Source: a virus. From it: a stretch of DNA of 39,195 bases. Shown in pieces: positions 3,188-15,868 of the stretch (positions are counted from its first letter, which is position 1; the number at the start of each line of letters is the position of its first letter). The stretch covers positions 1 to 39,195 of IMG/VR virus record IMGVR_UViG_3300049473_000032. One strand, written 5' to 3'. A program made the position numbers and the translations under genes. The notes beneath the pieces are model-generated. The model was not told where the DNA came from. It did no database searches and was given only the letters and a program-made list of their open reading frames with translations.

Positions 3188-3621
3188 AGATGAATGTGAA
3201 GGTCCTGCATGAAGGTACCAAAATCCCTAAATACAAGACAGAAGGGGCCGCCTGGCTCGATTTGGTCGCGGTGAGAAGCTTTACGCTTTGGCCCGGCGGG
3301 CACCGTTTGAGGATACCGACTGGCGTCGCGGTGAAAATACCGAGAGGATATGTTGGATTTGTGATGCAAAGAAGCGCTCATTCGTTAACAAATCAGGCGA
3401 GCGGTAGGGACTCGCCTGGGGTAATCGATAGTAATTATAGTGGGGAGATTTGCGTCCTCATGACCAACTCAACCGAAGCTCCATATGATGTGAAAGAGGG
3501 GGACATCATCGCGCAGCTTATAGTGGTGCCGGTGGTAACGGTTGAGCTGGTGGAGGTTGAGAGTCTGGAAGAGACCGAGCGGGGGGAAGGTGGCTTTGGG
3601 AGCACCGGGGCGGCCGTGTGA
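3184..3621 (+). CDS. dut: dUTP pyrophosphatase (dUTPase)
   Basis: 145 aa, the usual length of trimeric dUTPases. It hydrolyses dUTP to dUMP and pyrophosphate, keeping uracil out of phage DNA and feeding dTMP synthesis. Motif 1 is GAAWLDLVA (21-29). Motif 3 is GVIDSNYSGEI (79-89) with the catalytic Asp82 and uracil-stacking Tyr85. Motif 4 is GDIIAQLIVVPV (106-117). Motif 5, RGEGGFGSTG (133-142), is the flexible lid over the phosphates. Motif 2 is diverged: the usual PRSGLA is QRSAHS (62-67), though the key Arg-Ser remains. The gene is AT-richer than its neighbours, suggesting separate acquisition. Confidence 0.93.
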   Translation: MKMNVKVLHEGTKIPKYKTEGAAWLDLVAVRSFTLWPGGHRLRIPTGVAVKIPRGYVGFVMQRSAHSLTNQASGRDSPGVIDSNYSGEICVLMTNSTEAPYDVKEGDIIAQLIVVPVVTVELVEVESLEETERGEGGFGSTGAAV

Positions 3622-4061
3622 TGGCCAAGACGCTCATGGTCAAGACCATCGGCGGCAAGCTGGAGCCTCGCTTCGACGATGGGCGAGAAGCCCTCATGCG
3701 GATCAAGGCCGGGGCGGAGTTGATGGTGGAGTTCAAGCAGCCTCGCAGCATCCAGCATCACCGTTGGTTCTTCGCCCTGGTCAATTTGGTTCACGCCAAC
3801 GACCCCCAAAGCCGAACGGTTGAAGATCTGCGGAGTCAGATCACGGTCGCTGCTGGGCACTACAGCCATGGAATTCTGCCCGATGGCACTGTGGTGGCGG
3901 TGCCCAAGAGCATCGCGTTCCACAAGATGGACCAAGCTGAGTTCGCGGCGTTCGCTGATAGCGCCGTCAGAGCCGTGGTGCAGCACTTCCTGCCTGGCGT
4001 GACGGAGCAGGGATTGCGGAACGAAATTGCCGAGATGATTGGTATTGGGTGGGCGGTATGA
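3621..4061 (+). CDS. DUF1367 family phage protein
   Basis: 146 aa from ATG 3621 (TGATG overlap with the dUTPase stop; a GTG one codon earlier is also possible). KTLMVKTIGGKLEP at the start and KQPRSIQHHRWFFALVNLVH at residues 40-60 are characteristic of DUF1367, a family of lambdoid and related phages commonly found among nin-region/DNA-metabolism genes. The biochemical role is unknown. The basic, His-rich centre would fit nucleic acid contact, but this is inference. Confidence 0.75.
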   Translation: MAKTLMVKTIGGKLEPRFDDGREALMRIKAGAELMVEFKQPRSIQHHRWFFALVNLVHANDPQSRTVEDLRSQITVAAGHYSHGILPDGTVVAVPKSIAFHKMDQAEFAAFADSAVRAVVQHFLPGVTEQGLRNEIAEMIGIGWAV

Positions 4062-5498: not shown

Positions 5499-5741
5499 AT
5501 GAAAGAAGCTGAAATCGAGGTTGGGATGCACTACCGTGGCGAAAGCGGCGAGGTGCGCGAGGTTACCGCCATTGGCCAGGAATATAGGCCAAATGTGTAC
5601 TGGAGAGCTGATCAGGATTGGGTGGAATACACCGTGACGCTCAACAGAAATGGGAAGGAAAAAGGCGCGAGGATCGGTAGGATTTTTATCATGACGCGGA
5701 CAGCATTCGCGAGATGGGCAAAGGAAGGGGTGGCGGCGTGA
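5499..5741 (+). CDS. Hypothetical phage protein, 80 aa
   Basis: ATG 5499 with GGAGATGGAG upstream. Beta-rich, with alternating aromatic residues (VGMHYRGESGEVREV, VYWRADQDWVEYTV), as in small SH3/KOW-like folds. I have seen similar small proteins beside nuclease genes in phage early regions but can give no function. Its stop overlaps the GTG start of the next gene. Confidence 0.5.
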   Translation: MKEAEIEVGMHYRGESGEVREVTAIGQEYRPNVYWRADQDWVEYTVTLNRNGKEKGARIGRIFIMTRTAFARWAKEGVAA

Positions 5742-6127
5742 GCGAGCGGATTAGTGCTGACGCCTACAAAGGCATGACGGGCAAGCAAGGCAGGAAGCGT
5801 GAGCCTGGGAAGCGGAGCGGGAAATACAACGCCGTGCCGGTGACAGTGGATGGCATACGCTTCGCCTCGAAGCTTGAGGCGCGGTATTACGAGGCGTTGA
5901 AACTGCGCCAGGCAGCTGGGCAAGTGGCTTACTTCCTGTGCCAGGTCCCGTTCCATCTGCCAGGCGGGGTGAAGTATGTTGTTGATTTTGTCGAGTTTCA
6001 TACCGACGGTGTGGTGCGGTATGTGGATACGAAGGGGCACGTTACAGAGACCTTCAAGATTAAGAAGAGGATGGTGGAGGAGCTGTTCCCGGTGAAAATC
6101 GAGGTCGTTAGGAGGATGGGGAGATGA
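5738..6127 (+). CDS. DUF1064 family endonuclease-like protein
   Basis: 129 aa from GTG 5738, chosen for the GTGA overlap and the GGAAGGGG ribosome site; an ATG at 5714 is an alternative. KYNAVPVTVDGIRFASKLEA then VKYVVDFVEF and VRYVDTKG are the hallmarks of DUF1064, a compact PD-(D/E)XK-like phage family. Glu of KLEAR, Asp of VVDF and Asp-x-Lys of VDTKG are the likely metal and catalytic residues. Members are thought to act as structure-specific or resolvase-like nucleases; that role is inference. Directly coupled to the methylase by ATGA. Confidence 0.8.
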   Translation: MSERISADAYKGMTGKQGRKREPGKRSGKYNAVPVTVDGIRFASKLEARYYEALKLRQAAGQVAYFLCQVPFHLPGGVKYVVDFVEFHTDGVVRYVDTKGHVTETFKIKKRMVEELFPVKIEVVRRMGR

Positions 6128-7185
6128 AAGCACCGTTCCCGTATTTTGGCGGAAAGTCTGCCGTGGTGCATCTTGTATGGGAGGCAATTGGAGCGGATGT
6201 GGCAAACTATGTGGAACCGTTCGCGGGGTCTTTGGCGGTGCTGTTGTCTAGGCCAACCCATGCAATAGGGATTGAAACAGTCAACGACGCTGACGGGCTG
6301 CTGGCAAATTTTTGGCGCGCAACTGCCATGATGCCAAAAAAGGTGGCTGAATATGCGGACTGGCCAGTTAACGAAGCAGATTTGCACGCCAGACATCTAT
6401 GGTTAGTTGGGCAGCGGGAGGCACTTACCGAGAGGTTGATGGGGGACTCAGAGTTTTGCGACCCCAAAGCCGCTGGATGGTGGGTGTGGGGCATTTGTCA
6501 GTGGATAGGGAGCGGCTGGTGTAGCGGGAAGGGCCCATGGCAATCTGTTGGCGGAGTTCTGCAAAAGGCAGCAGCCAGAGACAAGGGGAGGGGGATCAAT
6601 CGGCAGATCCCCCATCTAGGGAACAAGGGGAGGGGGATCAATCGGCAGATCCCCCATCTAGGGGACAAGGGGAGGGGGGAATCCCGCTCAGCATACGTAC
6701 ATGCAACGATGCAAGAGCTAAGGTCAAGACTTCGCGATGTTCGCGTGGCTTGTGGTGACTTTGAACGTGTACTTGGCCCATCTCCAACATATAGGCTTGG
6801 TGTAACAGGTGTTTTTCTCGATCCTCCATATGATACTGGAGATAGTAAGATCGACGCAGGTGTGATGTATAACCATTTTGGAGGGGCGGCAGCCAGGGCG
6901 CGCGAATGGGCTATTGAAGCTGGCAAAAATCCAAAAATGCGAATAGTATTAGCAGGATACGTAGAAGAGCACGAAGAACAGATGCAAGATGCTGGGTGGA
7001 AATTACTGCGATGGAAGGCACGAGGAGGATACGGCAGCCAAGGGGGCGGTGATGGAAGATTGAACGCGGGCAGGGAAGCGCTATGGTTTTCCCCGCATTG
7101 CAACAACATTGGTGCTAGCTATAATGGCGCAACTTTAGACAAGCTGTGGGCTAATGATGCGTCTTGTGACGCTTTGGGAGGCTGA
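6124..7185 (+). CDS. D12-class DNA adenine methyltransferase (Dam-like)
   Basis: 353 aa. FPYFGGK (5-11) and VEPFAGSLAVLL (30-41) are the AdoMet-binding motifs X and I; DPPY (233-236) is the catalytic motif IV of N6-adenine methylases. The enzyme probably protects phage DNA or times gene expression; target sequence unknown. Residues 153-185 are built of a 14-residue tandem repeat (DKGRGINRQIPHLG, NKGRGINRQIPHLG, then DKGRGESR) in the variable target-recognition region. Similar G-x-G-x-x-R repeats occur in phage relatives. A 30-residue tail after the usual end overlaps the next gene region. AT-richer than flanking genes, so probably acquired separately. Confidence 0.88.
   Translation: MKAPFPYFGGKSAVVHLVWEAIGADVANYVEPFAGSLAVLLSRPTHAIGIETVNDADGLLANFWRATAMMPKKVAEYADWPVNEADLHARHLWLVGQREALTERLMGDSEFCDPKAAGWWVWGICQWIGSGWCSGKGPWQSVGGVLQKAAARDKGRGINRQIPHLGNKGRGINRQIPHLGDKGRGESRSAYVHATMQELRSRLRDVRVACGDFERVLGPSPTYRLGVTGVFLDPPYDTGDSKIDAGVMYNHFGGAAARAREWAIEAGKNPKMRIVLAGYVEEHEEQMQDAGWKLLRWKARGGYGSQGGGDGRLNAGREALWFSPHCNNIGASYNGATLDKLWANDASCDALGG
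6580..6678 (+). repeat. 42-bp in-frame tandem repeat with GATC hairpins
   Basis: Two copies (6580-6621, 6622-6663) differing at the first base, plus a 15-base third start. Each copy holds an inverted repeat GGGGGATC-(8 nt)-GATCCCCC (first copy 6590-6597 and 6606-6613), so four GATC sites fall within 60 bases. The period is a multiple of three and leaves the methylase frame intact. Confidence 0.9.
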
Positions 7186-7628: not shown

Positions 7629-8057
7629 ATGGTGACGCGGATTGGACCACAAGCTGACGAATCAGAGGTATGGCAATGGGAAGTGAGGCATGACGACAAG
7701 CCCATGGAATCCAGGGGCCACGCCTTGCTGCTGGCGTGGGGGCGATGGGAGGCCAGAGAGAGGACTCTGCCACGGTCAAAGTGCTCGACCCTTGTCATCA
7801 TGGAACGCGGGCTTGCACGAATTGACGGGGGATACAGGGCTGCGGTTGAGCTTGACCCGCGCAAGGACCTGGAGAGAGTGGCCGAGATCGTTAGGCATCA
7901 ACTGACGGACAGGCAGCGGGAGGCCGTCCATGGTCGGTACTACTACGGGCACAGCATACGAGAAGTGGCGAAGCGTCTGAACAGACACCCATCAACGATA
8001 CGGGAGCACATCATAGAGGCGCAAAGAGCGGTGGATATGGCTTACAATTCGCATTGA
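7629..8057 (+). CDS. Q-like late antiterminator / sigma-region-4 HTH regulator
   Basis: 142 aa, start supported by GGGAGG eight bases upstream. Residues about 92-138 (LTDRQREAVHGRYYYGHSIR, then EVAKRLNRHPSTIREHI) form a sigma-70 region-4-type helix-turn-helix, as in phage Q-type antiterminators and related late activators. Position is telling: it is the last gene of the middle operon, and its stop codon overlaps a near-consensus promoter followed by a terminator and then the lysis and head genes, as with lambda Q. It likely binds the downstream promoter and lets polymerase pass the terminator at 8137. It could instead be a simple activator. Confidence 0.72.
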   Translation: MVTRIGPQADESEVWQWEVRHDDKPMESRGHALLLAWGRWEARERTLPRSKCSTLVIMERGLARIDGGYRAAVELDPRKDLERVAEIVRHQLTDRQREAVHGRYYYGHSIREVAKRLNRHPSTIREHIIEAQRAVDMAYNSH

Positions 8058-8082
8058 CTTGCCCCGTCAATTTTGATATAAA
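8054..8082 (+). promoter_or_regulatory. Predicted late promoter (pR'-like)
   Basis: TTGACT (8054-8059) and TATAAA (8077-8082) are separated by exactly 17 bases; each hexamer is five of six to consensus. The start would be near 8089. The spacer holds a 10-base inverted repeat TCAATTTTGA (8067-8076), a candidate binding site for the regulator encoded just upstream. The transcript would meet the terminator at 8137 after about 50 nt, giving a roughly 90-nt leader RNA unless antiterminated. Confidence 0.7.
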
Positions 8083-8136
8083 ATGTGAAAATCGCGTGTC
8101 GTGTGACAGTTAAGCGTTGAACCTCATCTTGATGTC

Positions 8137-8178
8137 AAACAAAGCCCAGCCATGAACAGCCATGGCTGGGCTTTGTTT
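8137..8178. terminator. Strong bidirectional terminator (tR'-like)
   Basis: An 18-bp perfect stem (8137-8154 with 8161-8178) and 6-base loop AACAGC; the core is ACAAAGCCCAGCCATG and its complement. The + strand exits into TTTGTTTTC and the minus strand into TTTGTTTG, so it can stop transcripts from both sides: the leader from 8089 and the minus-strand gene at 8208-8549. Confidence 0.88.
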
Positions 8179-8207: not shown

Positions 8208-8549
8208 TCAATCGGTACATGACTTAGGCAGGATCTTCGACAAGTGGTGCAAAAGCGCCACTTTCTTTTCTTTTATCTCATCGTAATCATAGTTTACGAT
8301 TGCCAGAAGGTATGGATTGCTGGTTAAATACGATAGCGCCTCCTCGCCTGAGGCAAATGGACCATGTAAGTTAAGGCCGCTTTGGATATGCACGCCACGA
8401 TTCCCGGGCTCATATGAGGCCGTTTCGGCTTTGGCAGTTAGAGTGTCAGGGTCTTCGTAAGTTACCCACGTCGTATCAGGTCGTGCATATTCGATTGAAT
8501 CCATATTCACATAGAACCACTTTGAAGGTTTGGTGTCGGCGGTGCTCAT
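8208..8549 (-). CDS. Minus-strand single gene (moron-like), 113 aa
   Basis: The open frame is longer, but ATG 8549 has a clear ribosome site (GAGGAAAG) and avoids reading into the endolysin. The product is acidic, rich in Tyr and Trp (KWFYVNMDSIEY, AIVNYDYDEIKEKK), with no membrane segment or known motif. It lies opposite the late operon with its own promoter (8605-8633) and terminator, the pattern of a moron expressed in the prophage. The 3' half is AT-richer than surroundings. When late transcription reads through 8137 it produces antisense RNA over the whole gene. Could be an exclusion or defence protein; no function is assigned. Confidence 0.68.
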   Translation of the reverse strand: MSTADTKPSKWFYVNMDSIEYARPDTTWVTYEDPDTLTAKAETASYEPGNRGVHIQSGLNLHGPFASGEEALSYLTSNPYLLAIVNYDYDEIKEKKVALLHHLSKILPKSCTD

Positions 8550-8711: not shown

Positions 8712-9233
8712 ATGGACAACTTTTTGGGAGCCTTCGAGCGCACGATGGCATTTGAAGGCGGGTACGTCCTGCATCGCAACCCTGGGGAGAAGGGGTTGAC
8801 CTATGCCGGCATCTACCAGGCAGCCCATCCAGGATGGCCTGGGTGGAAGCTGATCAGCGAGCAGGGGGAGCGGGCGCCAGGGCTGACCCAGATGGTGAGG
8901 CAGTTCTATCGCGCCGAGTTCTGGGAGCGCATCCGAGGCGACGACCTTCCCCAAATCATTGCCGAAGATCTGTACGACATGGCCGTGAACGCCGGGGTCG
9001 GGCGGGCGGTGAAACTGGCTCAGAGGCTGGCCGGGGTGGCCCAGGATGGCGGCATCGGGCCGGTGACTGTCGAGGCACTAACCAAGATCCCTCCTGGCGA
9101 GTTCCGCGCGGCCTATCTCATCGCGCGCATCAACTATTACACCGGGCTGGCGAACGCTGACCCGAGAGGGAAAGGGCAGTTTTTGCGTGGCTGGGTCAAC
9201 CGTGCGTTGAAGTGCGCGGAGGTGATGGCATGA
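8712..9233 (+). CDS. GH108 endolysin (N-acetylmuramidase)
   Basis: 173 aa from ATG 8712 (GGAG six bases upstream). AFERTMAFEGGYVLHRNPGE and LTYAGIYQAAHPGW are the signature of glycoside hydrolase family 108; Glu15 of EGGY is the catalytic acid. The C-terminal part (residues about 95-170, NAGVGRAVKLAQRLAGV, then AAYLIARINYYTGLA) matches the family's peptidoglycan-binding domain. No signal peptide is seen, so release should depend on the holin. It cuts the glycan strands of the wall at lysis. First gene of the lysis cassette and of the late operon. Confidence 0.9.
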   Translation: MDNFLGAFERTMAFEGGYVLHRNPGEKGLTYAGIYQAAHPGWPGWKLISEQGERAPGLTQMVRQFYRAEFWERIRGDDLPQIIAEDLYDMAVNAGVGRAVKLAQRLAGVAQDGGIGPVTVEALTKIPPGEFRAAYLIARINYYTGLANADPRGKGQFLRGWVNRALKCAEVMA

Positions 9234-9676
9234 GCTTCCTTGGAACCCTGTTCGGCGGCGGGCTGGCCGATACCGTGAAGGCAGTCGGTGGCGTCATTGA
9301 CGACCTGCACACCTCTGACGATGAACGGCTCCAGGCTCAGATCAAGAGGATGGAGATCGAGGCTAGCCTTCTCCAGGGTCAGCAGGCGATCAACCAGACG
9401 GAGGCGCGGCATAAGTCCATTTTCGTGGCAGGGTGGAGACCAGCGATTGGCTGGGTGGGGGCAGCGGCGCTTGCGTATCAGTTCCTTCTCTATCCATTCA
9501 TGGCGTGGGGATGGTCTCTTGGGATCGCCCAGGGATGGATACCTGAAGGCGTTGAAGTCCCGCCGTCGCTAGACCCCGCCGTCCTGATGAACTTAATCAT
9601 GGCCATGCTCGGTGTCGGCGCCATGCGCAGCTACGACAAGACCAAAGGGACAGACACGGAAAGGGTGGCACGATGA
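9230..9676 (+). CDS. 3TM-type holin
   Basis: 148 aa from ATG 9230 (ATGA overlap with the endolysin). After a helical N-terminal half, SIFVAGWRPAIGWVGAAALA begins the hallmark of the 'holin of 3TMs' family, and two further hydrophobic segments follow (YQFLLYPFMAWGWSL, LMNLIMAMLGVGAM). The N-terminal amphipathic LFGGGLADTVKAVGGV is also typical. It forms the inner-membrane lesion that releases the endolysin. Confidence 0.85.
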   Translation: MSFLGTLFGGGLADTVKAVGGVIDDLHTSDDERLQAQIKRMEIEASLLQGQQAINQTEARHKSIFVAGWRPAIGWVGAAALAYQFLLYPFMAWGWSLGIAQGWIPEGVEVPPSLDPAVLMNLIMAMLGVGAMRSYDKTKGTDTERVAR

Positions 9677-10290: not shown

Positions 10291-10740
10291 ATGACCACTA
10301 TAGCAGCGGGACATGATGAGCATGGCCATATCGTAATGGCCGGGGATAGCTTCGGTACGTTTGACAATCTGCTCGGCGCCACCAAGCACAAGAAGGTGTG
10401 GCGCGATGAGGCAACTGGATGCCTCGTTGGTTACGCTGGCCGTGTGTTTGACCTGCCGGCTCTCGAGGCGGTTGCGCTTGGACGGCCAGGAGCAGAGATG
10501 CCTGCGGGCGACGATGTGGATGGTGAGGTGTTGGTAGTCTGGCCTGATGGTCGGGCTGAGCTGACCTCGACGGTTGGCAATCGTTGTGAGCCTGTTGATC
10601 TGCCATTTTCGATTGGCTCAGGGTCACTGATTGCCCTTGGCGCGATGCTTTTTGGTGCGTCTCCAGAGGGCGCGGTGTCAGTTGCCGCGATGAGAGACGT
10701 AAAAACTGGTGGTGAGATTACGGTGGTGAGGTTTGACTGA
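10291..10740 (+). CDS. HslV-like Ntn-hydrolase (proteasome-type) protease
   Basis: 149 aa. It starts MTTIAAGHDEHGHIVMAGDS, closely paralleling HslV (MTTIVSVRRNGHVVIAGD). After Met removal Thr1 would be the nucleophile; the AGD aspartate and the KKV lysine correspond to HslV Asp17 and Lys33. GYAGRVFD and the late FSIGSGSLIALGAMLFGAS match the HslV 'GFAGG' and 'IGSGGxYA' segments. It is shorter than HslV (about 175 aa), missing part of the middle. No HslU ATPase is present nearby. Placed directly before terminase, it may process or clear a head or scaffold protein; that is inference. Confidence 0.75.
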   Translation: MTTIAAGHDEHGHIVMAGDSFGTFDNLLGATKHKKVWRDEATGCLVGYAGRVFDLPALEAVALGRPGAEMPAGDDVDGEVLVVWPDGRAELTSTVGNRCEPVDLPFSIGSGSLIALGAMLFGASPEGAVSVAAMRDVKTGGEITVVRFD

Positions 10741-11246
10741 TGACCTTGACCGCCAAACAGCAGGCGTTCGTGGCCGAGTATCTTATCGACTTCAACGCCA
10801 CACAGGCCGCGATACGAGCCGGGTATAGCAAGAAGACGGCTGAAGTCCAAGGATATGAAAACCTAAGGAAACCTAATATCGCTGAGGCCATCGCAGCCGC
10901 TCAGGCAGCCCGCGCCGAACGCACCCAGATCACTGCGGACATGGTGGTCCAGGAGCTGGCCAAGATCGGCTTTGCCAACATGGCGGACTATCTGAGCACG
11001 GGTGCCGATCCCCACATCGATCTGTCTACCCTGACCCCAGATCAGGCGGCGGCCATATCCGAGGTGTGGACCGAGGAGGTTGGCGGCGGCGACGCCCCAA
11101 TGATCCTCAAACGCAAGATCAAGCTGCACAGCAAGCTGGACGCACTGGATAAGCTGGCCAGACATCTGGGCATCTATGAGAAGGACAACAGGCAGGCGGC
11201 GGCCATGCCTACCTTCAACCTTATTATTGAGGGTGCGGGCGATTGA
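10740..11246 (+). CDS. terS: Terminase small subunit
   Basis: 168 aa, TGATG overlap with the protease gene. MTLTAKQQAFVAEYLIDFNA then TQAAIRAGYSKKTAEVQGYE is the classical N-terminal HTH of the terminase_2 family, which recognises the packaging site in phage DNA and stimulates the large subunit. The C-terminal part (KIKLHSKLDALDKLARHLGI) is the usual oligomerisation tail. Overlaps the large subunit by 14 bases. Confidence 0.92.
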   Translation: MTLTAKQQAFVAEYLIDFNATQAAIRAGYSKKTAEVQGYENLRKPNIAEAIAAAQAARAERTQITADMVVQELAKIGFANMADYLSTGADPHIDLSTLTPDQAAAISEVWTEEVGGGDAPMILKRKIKLHSKLDALDKLARHLGIYEKDNRQAAAMPTFNLIIEGAGD

Positions 11247-12660
11247 ATACCGGCTACACAAGGCGCAGGGCAGGGTCATTCAATCCCAGGCGAGGGAAAT
11301 CCTGTATGGCGGCGCCGCTGGGGCAGGCAAGAGCCATCTTCTGCGTATCCTGGCGCTGACAGTTTGTTTCAACGTCCCTGGCGCACAGGTCTACCTGTTC
11401 CGGCGGACCTATCCTGACCTGTGGCAGAACCACATGACCGGCAACATGGGCTTCCCCGCGCTGCTGGCTCCATGGATCGAGATGGGTGTTTGCGCCATCA
11501 ACTGGGGCAAGAACCAGATCCGGTTCCGCAACGGAGCCACCATACATTTGAGCCATTGCCAGCACGAGAAGGATGTTTTCGGCTTCCAGGGGGCCGAGAT
11601 CCATCTCCTTTTGTTCGATGAGTTGACCCACTTCACCGCGTCCATCTATCGCTTTCTGCGCTCCCGCGTCCGGGTCACCAACCTGGACGTGCCTGCTCGG
11701 TGGTCCCACCTGGTGCCACGCATCGTCGCCGGGTCCAACCCGGGCGGCAGGGGACATGATTGGGTCAAGGCCGCGTTCATCTCCCCGGCTCCGCCAGGAG
11801 AGATCTGGCGCACGCCTGACACCGAGGGCGGCATGGACCGCCAGTTCATCGCGGCGCGCCTGGCCGACAACCCGACGCTGGCGCTGTCTGACCCGGACTA
11901 CGTGAAGAGATTGTATGGTCTTGGGTCCCCGGAGCTGGTCGAGGCGATGCTTGATGGCAATTGGGATATCGTGTCAGGCGGGGCTTTGAGTGACCTCTGG
12001 CGCCGCGAACGGCATGTCATCAAGCCGTTCCTGATCCCGCCATCCTGGCGCATCAGCCGTGCTCTTGATTGGGGGAGTTCAACTCCATTCTCCGTCGGCT
12101 GGTGGGCGGAGAGCGACGGAACCGAGGCGGACATTCCTGGGAAGGGACGGATGACTTGGCCGCGCGGCACATTCTTCCGTATCGGCGAGTGGTACGGAGC
12201 CAAGCCTAACGGCGACGGACTCAGACTGACCAGCAGCCAGTTGGCAGACGGCATCCTGGAACGGGAAAAGAAGCTCGGCATTGCCGGGCGGGTCAAGCCG
12301 GGACCGGCGGACAACCAGATCTTCGCCAGCACGGATGGCCCCAGTATCCACGACAAGATGCAGGTGCGCGGCATCCGGTTCACCGAGTCTGACAAGTCAC
12401 CAGGCTCCCGCAAGATCGGTCTGGAGCTGATCCGCGAGCGTCTGCAAGCCACCCTGAAGCTCCCCATGGAGGAGCCTGGGCTTATGATCTTCGACCGCTG
12501 CACCGCATGGATCGACACGGTGCCCGTGTTGTCGCGCGATGAGTCCGACACTGACGACGTGGCCAAGTGCGCGTCAGACCACGCCTACGACGAGACGCGT
12601 TACATGCTGACCGCCAAGAAGCCATTTGTCGGACTCAGAACCGCCGGGACTTATAGGTAA
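11233..12660 (+). CDS. terL: Terminase large subunit
   Basis: 475 aa from GTG 11233; the open frame extends further upstream inside terS but lacks a sensible start. Walker A GGAAGAGKS (26-34), FRRTYPDL (56-63), Walker B LLLFDE (125-130) and coupling motif SNPGG (168-172) define the packaging ATPase. The C-terminal RNase H-like nuclease shows ALDWGSSTPFS (Asp279) and a late DHAYDE (near 449). It translocates DNA into the procapsid through the portal and cuts it. The domain layout fits a headful or cos enzyme; the type cannot be decided here. Confidence 0.95.
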   Translation: MRAIEYRLHKAQGRVIQSQAREILYGGAAGAGKSHLLRILALTVCFNVPGAQVYLFRRTYPDLWQNHMTGNMGFPALLAPWIEMGVCAINWGKNQIRFRNGATIHLSHCQHEKDVFGFQGAEIHLLLFDELTHFTASIYRFLRSRVRVTNLDVPARWSHLVPRIVAGSNPGGRGHDWVKAAFISPAPPGEIWRTPDTEGGMDRQFIAARLADNPTLALSDPDYVKRLYGLGSPELVEAMLDGNWDIVSGGALSDLWRRERHVIKPFLIPPSWRISRALDWGSSTPFSVGWWAESDGTEADIPGKGRMTWPRGTFFRIGEWYGAKPNGDGLRLTSSQLADGILEREKKLGIAGRVKPGPADNQIFASTDGPSIHDKMQVRGIRFTESDKSPGSRKIGLELIRERLQATLKLPMEEPGLMIFDRCTAWIDTVPVLSRDESDTDDVAKCASDHAYDETRYMLTAKKPFVGLRTAGTYR

Positions 12661-14122: not shown

Positions 14123-15868
14123 ATGGCGGGCACCGACGACCTGCTCGAAGCGCTAGGCAAGGCGGGGGAGGATGGGATACGGCGCGCCATCAACCGGCTG
14201 AATGCGCAGTTGTTGGACTTGGCGGCCAGCGCCTACGCTGGGCGCGGCTACCCCAAAGTGACCTTCGCCCAGGCGCAAGAACTGGCGGCAGAGATGGCGG
14301 CGGCCTTCGCGCCCTACATGGCCGAGGCGAGGGCGCTCGGACGTACCCTGCAAAAGGTCAATAAGACTGTCATTTCAGACATGCGGGATGGCGGGTTCGC
14401 CTACTCTTTCGACGACGAAGACCAGGCGGTCATGGCGGGGCTCAGGTCAACCGCCGTAAACGACCTGACTCGATACGGACAGACCATATCGGACAGCGTG
14501 CGCAAGACCCTGATCGAGTCGGTGCTGACCAAGCGTAAATGGTCCGATCTGGAGGCAGACATCCGCCAAAAGGTGGAGGGATACAAGGACAAGCGCGGCC
14601 AGTCCTTGGCCCGCTACGCAGGGGTCTACGCCCGCGACGCGGTGCATGACTACCACGCAGGCATTCATGCCCACGTCGGCGAAAAGGCTGGCGTCACCCA
14701 CTATCGGTACACCGGGACATCGGTCAAAGACTCGCGGCCCTTCTGTGTCGCTCGCGTAGGGCGGGTGTTCCCCATTGAGGACATTCAGAGTTGGGACGCC
14801 CTGGACTGGGACGGCAAGAAGCCCGGGCCAACCCTGATCAACCGGGGCGGGTACAACTGCCGGCACCACTGGCGGCCGGTGGATGTGCGGGATGTGGATG
14901 AGGGGGAGGTCGGGCTGGAAGGCGGCGCCGATGATGAGGCTACGAAGAAGGACAAGCCGCAGCCGCAGCAGGCAACAGCACCAGCAGCACCAGCAGCACC
15001 AGCAGCACCAGCAGCACCAGCAGCACCAGCAGCACCAGCAGCACCAGCAGCACCAGCAGCACCAGCCAGGGAGACGGCTAAAGCCCCTGACGAACTGATG
15101 CCAATCCTGGACATGCAGAAGGCGCTTGGGCGTTACATGCCGGATGGAGTCCCTGGTGAGTTGGCCGAATGGTGGGAGGACACCATAAAAGAACATCCGC
15201 AGAAGGTGATCGAGGCCTTCACGGCTGGCGTACCTGATAATAAATACTTGGTGCGGAATGCCACGATCGAGTGGAATCCTTATAAGAAGATGGCGTCAGT
15301 TGTAAGCTATGGGGCTGGCATTAAGGAAATCAGACGCAATTTCTTGCGAGATTCTGATGGCAGACTGGTCGTTGAGCATGACACCCTGGTAATAGATGTG
15401 AGGCTGCAAGGCCAGGGGGTGACCAAGCGGATTTTCCGCGATAGCTACGCCCTATACCGCAGAATTGGTGTGCAGCGCATTAACGTGCATGCTAATATCG
15501 ATATTGGTGGTTATTCCTGGGCGCGGTATGGATTCGTGCCAGAACAGACCTATCGCGGGCTGGAAAGCGCGCAGGACGACGCGCGCAAGAGGTTCGACTT
15601 GATTGCTGATCAACTTGACCAGGATACGCGGTCTAATCTGCAAGGCCTGCTGTCGAGCGATGATCCATATTCATTGTTGGACATCGCCGACATTAAAACC
15701 ACAGTGAGGTTTACCTTCCCAAGCAATAGCTCAAGACGAACGGCGGAGGTTGAAACTACCGTGGGCAAGGCGTTGTTGATCGATAGCGACTGGTTTGGGT
15801 TCATCGATATGGATGACCGGCGCATGACCGAAAGGTTGGAGGGATACTTGGGGCTGAACAATGGCTGA
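14123..15868 (+). CDS. MuF head protein fused to a GNAT-like C-terminal domain
   Basis: 581 aa. Residues about 165-255 carry the SPP1 gp7/Mu gpF core (HYRYTGTSVKDSRPFCVARV, then RGGYNCRHHWRPVD). Residues about 285-313 are an (Ala-Ala-Pro)n linker. The last 260 residues form a separate domain; residues about 423-475 (VRLQGQGVTKRIFRDSYALY, VHANIDIGGYSWARYGFVPE) look like motifs A and B of a GNAT acyltransferase, with QGQGVT as the acyl-CoA loop. This 3' third is visibly AT-richer than the rest. MuF proteins enter the capsid, and MuF-linked variable C-terminal toxin domains are known in prophages, so an injected effector is plausible but unproven. Confidence 0.8.
   Translation: MAGTDDLLEALGKAGEDGIRRAINRLNAQLLDLAASAYAGRGYPKVTFAQAQELAAEMAAAFAPYMAEARALGRTLQKVNKTVISDMRDGGFAYSFDDEDQAVMAGLRSTAVNDLTRYGQTISDSVRKTLIESVLTKRKWSDLEADIRQKVEGYKDKRGQSLARYAGVYARDAVHDYHAGIHAHVGEKAGVTHYRYTGTSVKDSRPFCVARVGRVFPIEDIQSWDALDWDGKKPGPTLINRGGYNCRHHWRPVDVRDVDEGEVGLEGGADDEATKKDKPQPQQATAPAAPAAPAAPAAPAAPAAPAAPAAPAAPARETAKAPDELMPILDMQKALGRYMPDGVPGELAEWWEDTIKEHPQKVIEAFTAGVPDNKYLVRNATIEWNPYKKMASVVSYGAGIKEIRRNFLRDSDGRLVVEHDTLVIDVRLQGQGVTKRIFRDSYALYRRIGVQRINVHANIDIGGYSWARYGFVPEQTYRGLESAQDDARKRFDLIADQLDQDTRSNLQGLLSSDDPYSLLDIADIKTTVRFTFPSNSSRRTAEVETTVGKALLIDSDWFGFIDMDDRRMTERLEGYLGLNNG
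14974..15063 (+). repeat. 9-bp microsatellite encoding Ala-Ala-Pro linker
   Basis: Nine perfect copies of AGCAGCACC (14983-15063) after one variant copy (14974-14982). In-frame with MuF, so copy-number change alters linker length by three residues without frameshift. Not a CRISPR array: there are no spacers. Confidence 0.93.

Follow-up and report, generated by a model that had tools for sequence, protein, structure and literature searches.

A probable Q-type late antitermination switch of the phage 21 kind in a virus record without a close relative in the collections searched

How the lysis and head genes of this virus might be switched on is a question raised by a short region in which a gene for a sigma-region-4-like protein ends inside a promoter, with a strong hairpin a short distance beyond. 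The window analyzed is the whole stretch of the virus record, with 39,195 bases and a GC content of 60%. A preliminary description had compared the region with the Q-pR'-tR' logic of lambda, and this comparison is supported by the layout, the synteny and the homology reported below. The lysis and head genes are probably controlled by a late antitermination switch of Q type, similar to that of phage 21. The reading is well supported by the layout, the homology, the modelled fold and the recurrence of the arrangement across the family, and from these we infer the transcript ends, the binding site and antitermination itself. The features of the region are as follows.

3618–4061, plus strand: NinB/Orf-like gene, upstream (nin-region synteny)
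5714–6127, plus strand: Holliday-junction resolvase-like gene (phrog_190), upstream (nin-region synteny)
7629–8057, plus strand: Q-like regulator gene, 142 aa, with a WG.W helix H1 (residues 37–40), a putatively flexible H2 segment and sigma-R4-like H3–H6
8054–8059, plus strand: -35 element TTGACT, holding the regulator stop TGA (8055–8057), with the same overlap in L013, L014 and L238
8077–8082, plus strand: -10 element TATAAA, separated from the -35 by a 17-nt spacer
8087–8092, plus strand: GAAAAT, the sole -10-like hexamer (A2, T6) near the start
8089–8178, plus strand: predicted leader transcript of ~90 nt, deduced from promoter and terminator
~8137–8178, both strands: tR'-like intrinsic terminator, a near-perfect palindrome, bidirectional
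8208–8549, minus strand: convergent orphan gene, 113 aa, between the terminator and the lysis genes
8242–8263, plus strand: a further terminator-like hairpin, followed by a T-rich tail, within the minus-strand gene
8712–9233, plus strand: GH108 endolysin, first late gene
9212–9676, plus strand: holin (GTA_holin_3TM)
10740: TerS-like gene, called by position
11176–12660, plus strand: terminase large subunit (TerL) of the downstream head cluster, followed by structural genes

The gene order is lambdoid (NinB, resolvase, Q, lysis, terminase), and the regulator lies between the nin/resolvase genes and the lysis/terminase genes. Between the resolvase and the regulator, a methylase-like gene is followed by a small gene that matches cupin weakly; the methylase-like gene (6124–7185) harbors an in-frame tandem repeat, NKGRGINRQIPHLG, in about three copies. 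A gene for an HslV-family (Ntn-hydrolase) peptidase-like protein (10291–10740, phrog_1040) is located between the lysis and terminase genes, and one head-gene product (14123–15868) carries a long Ala-Pro repeat (APAAPAAPAA...) in the middle of the protein.

The regulator gene does end inside TTGACT-17-TATAAA, as had been described, with its TGA falling within the -35 element. This promoter matches the consensus at 10 of 12 positions and is one of only four such matches on the plus strand in 39 kb, while the chance of a 10/12 promoter in a random 60-nt window of local composition is ~0.008. Between 8330 and 8712, no plus-strand promoter of at least 9/12 was found. The hairpin at 8137–8178, which comprises a stem of 17–18 bp, a 6-nt loop and TTTT, outscored every other terminator-like site of the window, whichever strand was taken, and the terminator ends 117 nt beyond the regulator stop. 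Both promoter and hairpin had been overlooked by one scan because its -10 pattern had to carry T at position 6 and its terminator pattern required a tail richer in T. The predicted leader, folded as 93 nt, gave -40.5 kcal/mol (z -6.5). It had been likened to 6S RNA, which holds only in the sense of a lambda leader transcript; a bacterial 6S RNA was rejected, since no Rfam family matches anywhere in the window.

The earlier account of an 18-bp-stem terminator ahead of the lysis and head genes stood in part: the hairpin is real and these genes lie downstream, but the minus-strand ORF 8208–8549 intervenes and the hairpin is bidirectional. No relatives of the product of this ORF were found in Pfam, PHROGs, NCBIfam, phages or viral_contigs. 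The gene has a lower GC content (GC3 0.51) and resembles a moron equipped with its own (shared) terminator, and the hairpin at 8242–8263 inside it is possibly a tandem late terminator. An antisense gene before the endolysin is not unusual, because in DLP12 the minus-strand nmpC is similarly placed between quuD and essD. The orphan gene ends ~30 nt from the hairpin, which tops both strands, so the region could be read as mere punctuation between convergent genes, with a bidirectional terminator that serves both the early operon and the gene on the minus strand, and with a promoter that is fortuitous or the source of a short RNA. This explanation is quite unlikely: a 10/12 promoter is placed exactly at the regulator stop (~0.8% by chance), the arrangement recurs in relatives of Q, including the stop inside the -35, and the role of a tR' is compatible with a bidirectional terminator.

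In the proposed mechanism, the regulator would be the final gene of the early operon, and RNA polymerase would initiate constitutively at TTGACT-17-TATAAA, with a start near 8089. Without the regulator, transcription would halt after ~90 nt at the hairpin 8137–8178 and the lysis and head genes would stay off; with it, the regulator would be loaded onto RNA polymerase at the promoter in the manner of Q, and the terminator would then be read through. GAAAAT at 8087–8092 sits 10 nt past the -10 against the usual ~13, that is, 3 nt too far upstream, and makes a weak candidate for a sigma-dependent pause element; no -10-like pause element was observed at the canonical place (~+1 to +8) of this promoter. 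Many phage late regulators are activators, and with its sigma-R4-like C-terminus the regulator might likewise recruit RNA polymerase to the stop-codon promoter, or to another late promoter, without any antitermination. This is unlikely, as the promoter, at 10/12, already comes close to the consensus, the N-terminal half of the protein fits the Q family, and the transcript would stop ~90 nt on at the strongest terminator of the window, so that activation alone would not reach the late genes.

The ORF 7629–8057 proved to be a real gene for a sigma-region-4/HTH protein of 142 aa, as the preliminary description had it, with Pfam matches to HTH_38 (9.6e-10) and Sigma70_r4_2 (2.4e-7), and with Sigma70_r4 and HTH_38 exceeding their cut-offs. 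The sigma-R4-like HTH is present at the C-terminus, according to both Pfam and the model, which aligns to 21Q and sigma-R4, and besides the HTH an N-terminal WG.W helix was observed. The best sequence matches in NCBIfam and PDB are ECF sigma factors, mostly in region 4, and might suggest a true (ECF-like) sigma factor for the late genes; however, no Pfam match to sigma region 2 was found in the regulator, which has just 142 aa and carries the WG.W helix instead, and this possibility is very remote. The Q of phage 21 (21Q) has a sigma-R4-like fold plus an additional N-terminal helix (PMC6606751), so a sigma-R4 gene at this place has the look expected of a 21-type Q. It was thus wrong to call the regulator unrelated-looking, as both proteins combine the N-terminal WG.W helix with the HTH. 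PF06530 (Phage_antitermQ) matches the regulator weakly over residues 34–136 (E 0.0035), with 17.7 bits against a curated score of 26, a cut-off that is a rule of the database and not a biological trait, and for this reason the protein is described here as a divergent relative and not as a curated PF06530 member. 21Q itself falls in PF06530 (8.8e-25), and QuuD as a query retrieves the solved 21Q chains.

The full-length profile score of the regulator was 30.7 bits, and some sigma factors score as high through the HTH, so this score was rejected as proof of a Q identity. The claim of a Q relationship therefore rests on the N-terminal half, which was assessed apart because HTH similarity is cheap. 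In a first test, a profile was built from 27 relatives with the regulator left out, and the N-terminal half without the HTH scored 12.9 bits, against a maximum of 6.6 bits among 2,000 shuffles. In a second test, which used an N-terminal-only profile from 34 relatives and ~5,650 ORFs, including sigma factors from the same searches, the regulator ranked first among the non-members and also above 3,000 shuffles. The block in common, L..WG.W....(L/V/I)PR...., is sharpest against the YA3-type Qs of Pseudomonas phages, where BLASTP aligned residues 33–136 with 27 of 105 positions identical (26%; E 1e-5 for a single comparison). An hhalign comparison of the single regulator sequence with the enteric Q profile was weak. 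By its sequence, the regulator is related to the phage-21 Q family, though very divergent from it.

A single-sequence AlphaFold model of the regulator was discarded (pLDDT 34.5), and a usable model was built on an alignment that included five other Qs. It contains six helices, with a pLDDT of ~80 in H1 and H3–H6 and a low value in H2 (predicted H54–64). The structural comparison with Q families, which the preliminary description had suggested, agreed with the proposed kinship: against the 21Q chains, 91–96 residues were aligned with Z 7.3–8.6 and an rmsd of 2.4–4.0 Å, compared with ~60–75 residues against most sigma factors, though a Z of ~8 in a small helical protein may mean a common arrangement and alone is no proof of kinship with 21Q.

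In addition, the region was compared with known systems. Phage 21 Q (PF06530; PDB 6P18, 6JNX) shares the sigma-R4-like HTH, the N-terminal WG.W helix, which is what touches the RNA polymerase dock in 21Q, and perhaps the flexible segment, predicted here with low confidence, and phage 21 also has a promoter directly past the Q stop, a 17-nt spacer, a terminator soon after and the position between nin and lysis genes. In its annotation, the -35 starts 7 nt past the Q stop, the 17-nt spacer carries a direct-repeat QBE and no more than 50 nt separate the start from the end of the terminator. However, the two proteins are only ~16% identical in the alignment, the window has neither the direct-repeat QBE nor a canonical pause element, its leader is ~90 nt against ~50, and a convergent orphan gene follows. 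The YA3-type Qs of Pseudomonas phages are the nearest Qs detected with the N-terminal block (21–27% identity, WG[KR]W...PR...IM); they have a promoter past the Q stop and a dyad overlapping the -35, and in L174, L181 and L182 a terminator ~100 nt past the stop, but the dyad sequence is another one and their -35 lies 20–30 nt past the stop. The -35 TTGAC(A/T) of Proteus Pm34 and Providencia PSTCR7lys begins at -3 with the Q stop inside and is followed by a 17-nt spacer, as here, with terminators that end 95–96 nt past the stop versus 117 in the window; their Qs are nearer to 21Q, with an 8-bp direct-repeat site, and the one from Providencia clearly belongs to PF06530. Lambda Q/pR'/tR' is alike in logic and gene order, whereas the Q protein is different and the leader, ~194 nt, much longer. 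The antiterminators AlpA of Pseudomonas aeruginosa and GafZ of Caulobacter have a site between the -35 and the -10 and a terminator downstream (PMC9371919, PMC7969949, PMC11150451); AlpA has a single 6-bp site and GafZ a palindrome, and they are likened to the window by description and not by sequence.

Where the regulator might bind was considered for two palindromic sequences of the promoter.

8067–8076, no strand: TCAATTTTGA, the candidate site of the preliminary description
8053–8071, no strand: dyad ATTGAC-N7-GTCAAT, candidate regulator site that spans the -35 and extends over the spacer's upstream portion

The first was rejected as the binding site, because a palindrome of this kind is expected by chance in 11–19% of such spacers and is not significant. 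The dyad ATTGAC-N7-GTCAAT (~7% by chance) is placed like the conserved dyad CCGTGTTAACACGG of the YA3-type relatives, overlapping the -35, and is the better, though unproven, candidate. The 21-type Qs carry two tandem 8-bp repeats ahead of the -10 (6–8 of 8 positions matching), and a direct-repeat QBE of this type was not found in the window promoter, where 2 of 8 positions match. As a tentative and rather doubtful proposal, the regulator might use the dyad in place of the 21-type direct repeat, and might then act as a repressor of initiation in addition to its antitermination role. If this were true, sigma region 4 would lose its place on the -35 when Q loads at ATTGAC-N7-GTCAAT, and the YA3-type Qs with CCGTGTTAACACGG would share this geometry.

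The arrangement was then followed across the wider family. A strong terminator lies within 230 nt after the stop in 17 of 29 Q genes, that of the window included, compared with 7.1% of random windows from the same records, and this count is an underestimate, as the bulged terminator of phage 21 itself is missed. Near-consensus promoters with terminators ending 89–106 nt past the stop were observed in the relatives L152 and L161, and in L238, from viral_contigs, the Q stop likewise lies within TTGAC. Among the YA3-type loci, L167, L169 and L102 (YA3) harbor, after the pR' leader, a different sequence that starts near GGGTTGCGACTA and replaces the terminator hairpin of L174, L181 and L182, perhaps because the terminator site received an insertion; in L167, no Rfam match was found. 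The QuuD-type Qs L243, L262 and L242 carry past the Q stop, where the late promoter is likely to lie, a palindrome, TTTACGTACGTAAA, which differs from the direct-repeat site of phage 21.

No direct relatives of the regulator were detected in viral_contigs, genome_contigs or phages, and a profile of enteric Qs and the regulator, searched against viral_contigs, gave no relative that was confirmed against the regulator. The TerL neighbors at 79 genome loci had no Q nearby, and searches of Pseudomonadota, Desulfobacterota, Alphaproteobacteria and Gammaproteobacteria with the regulator or its profile returned only distant Qs or sigma factors. In the collections searched, no relative was near enough for DNA conservation to be assessed, so the phage itself is unusual, while the device is not.

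Each of the three alternatives, activator, punctuation and sigma factor, explains less of the evidence than the Q switch does. The device at this locus is a known one and not new; the locus adds a further example, albeit with a very divergent regulator, and widens the range of the 21Q-type late switch to include a phage without a close sequenced relative in the collections searched. Proteins of the 21Q type may resemble stray 'sigma region 4' genes and escape the Pfam cut-off. Many unrecognized Q genes could be annotated by a simple rule, namely a gene with WG.W and sigma-R4 whose stop codon coincides with a promoter and is followed by a terminator within about 120 nt.
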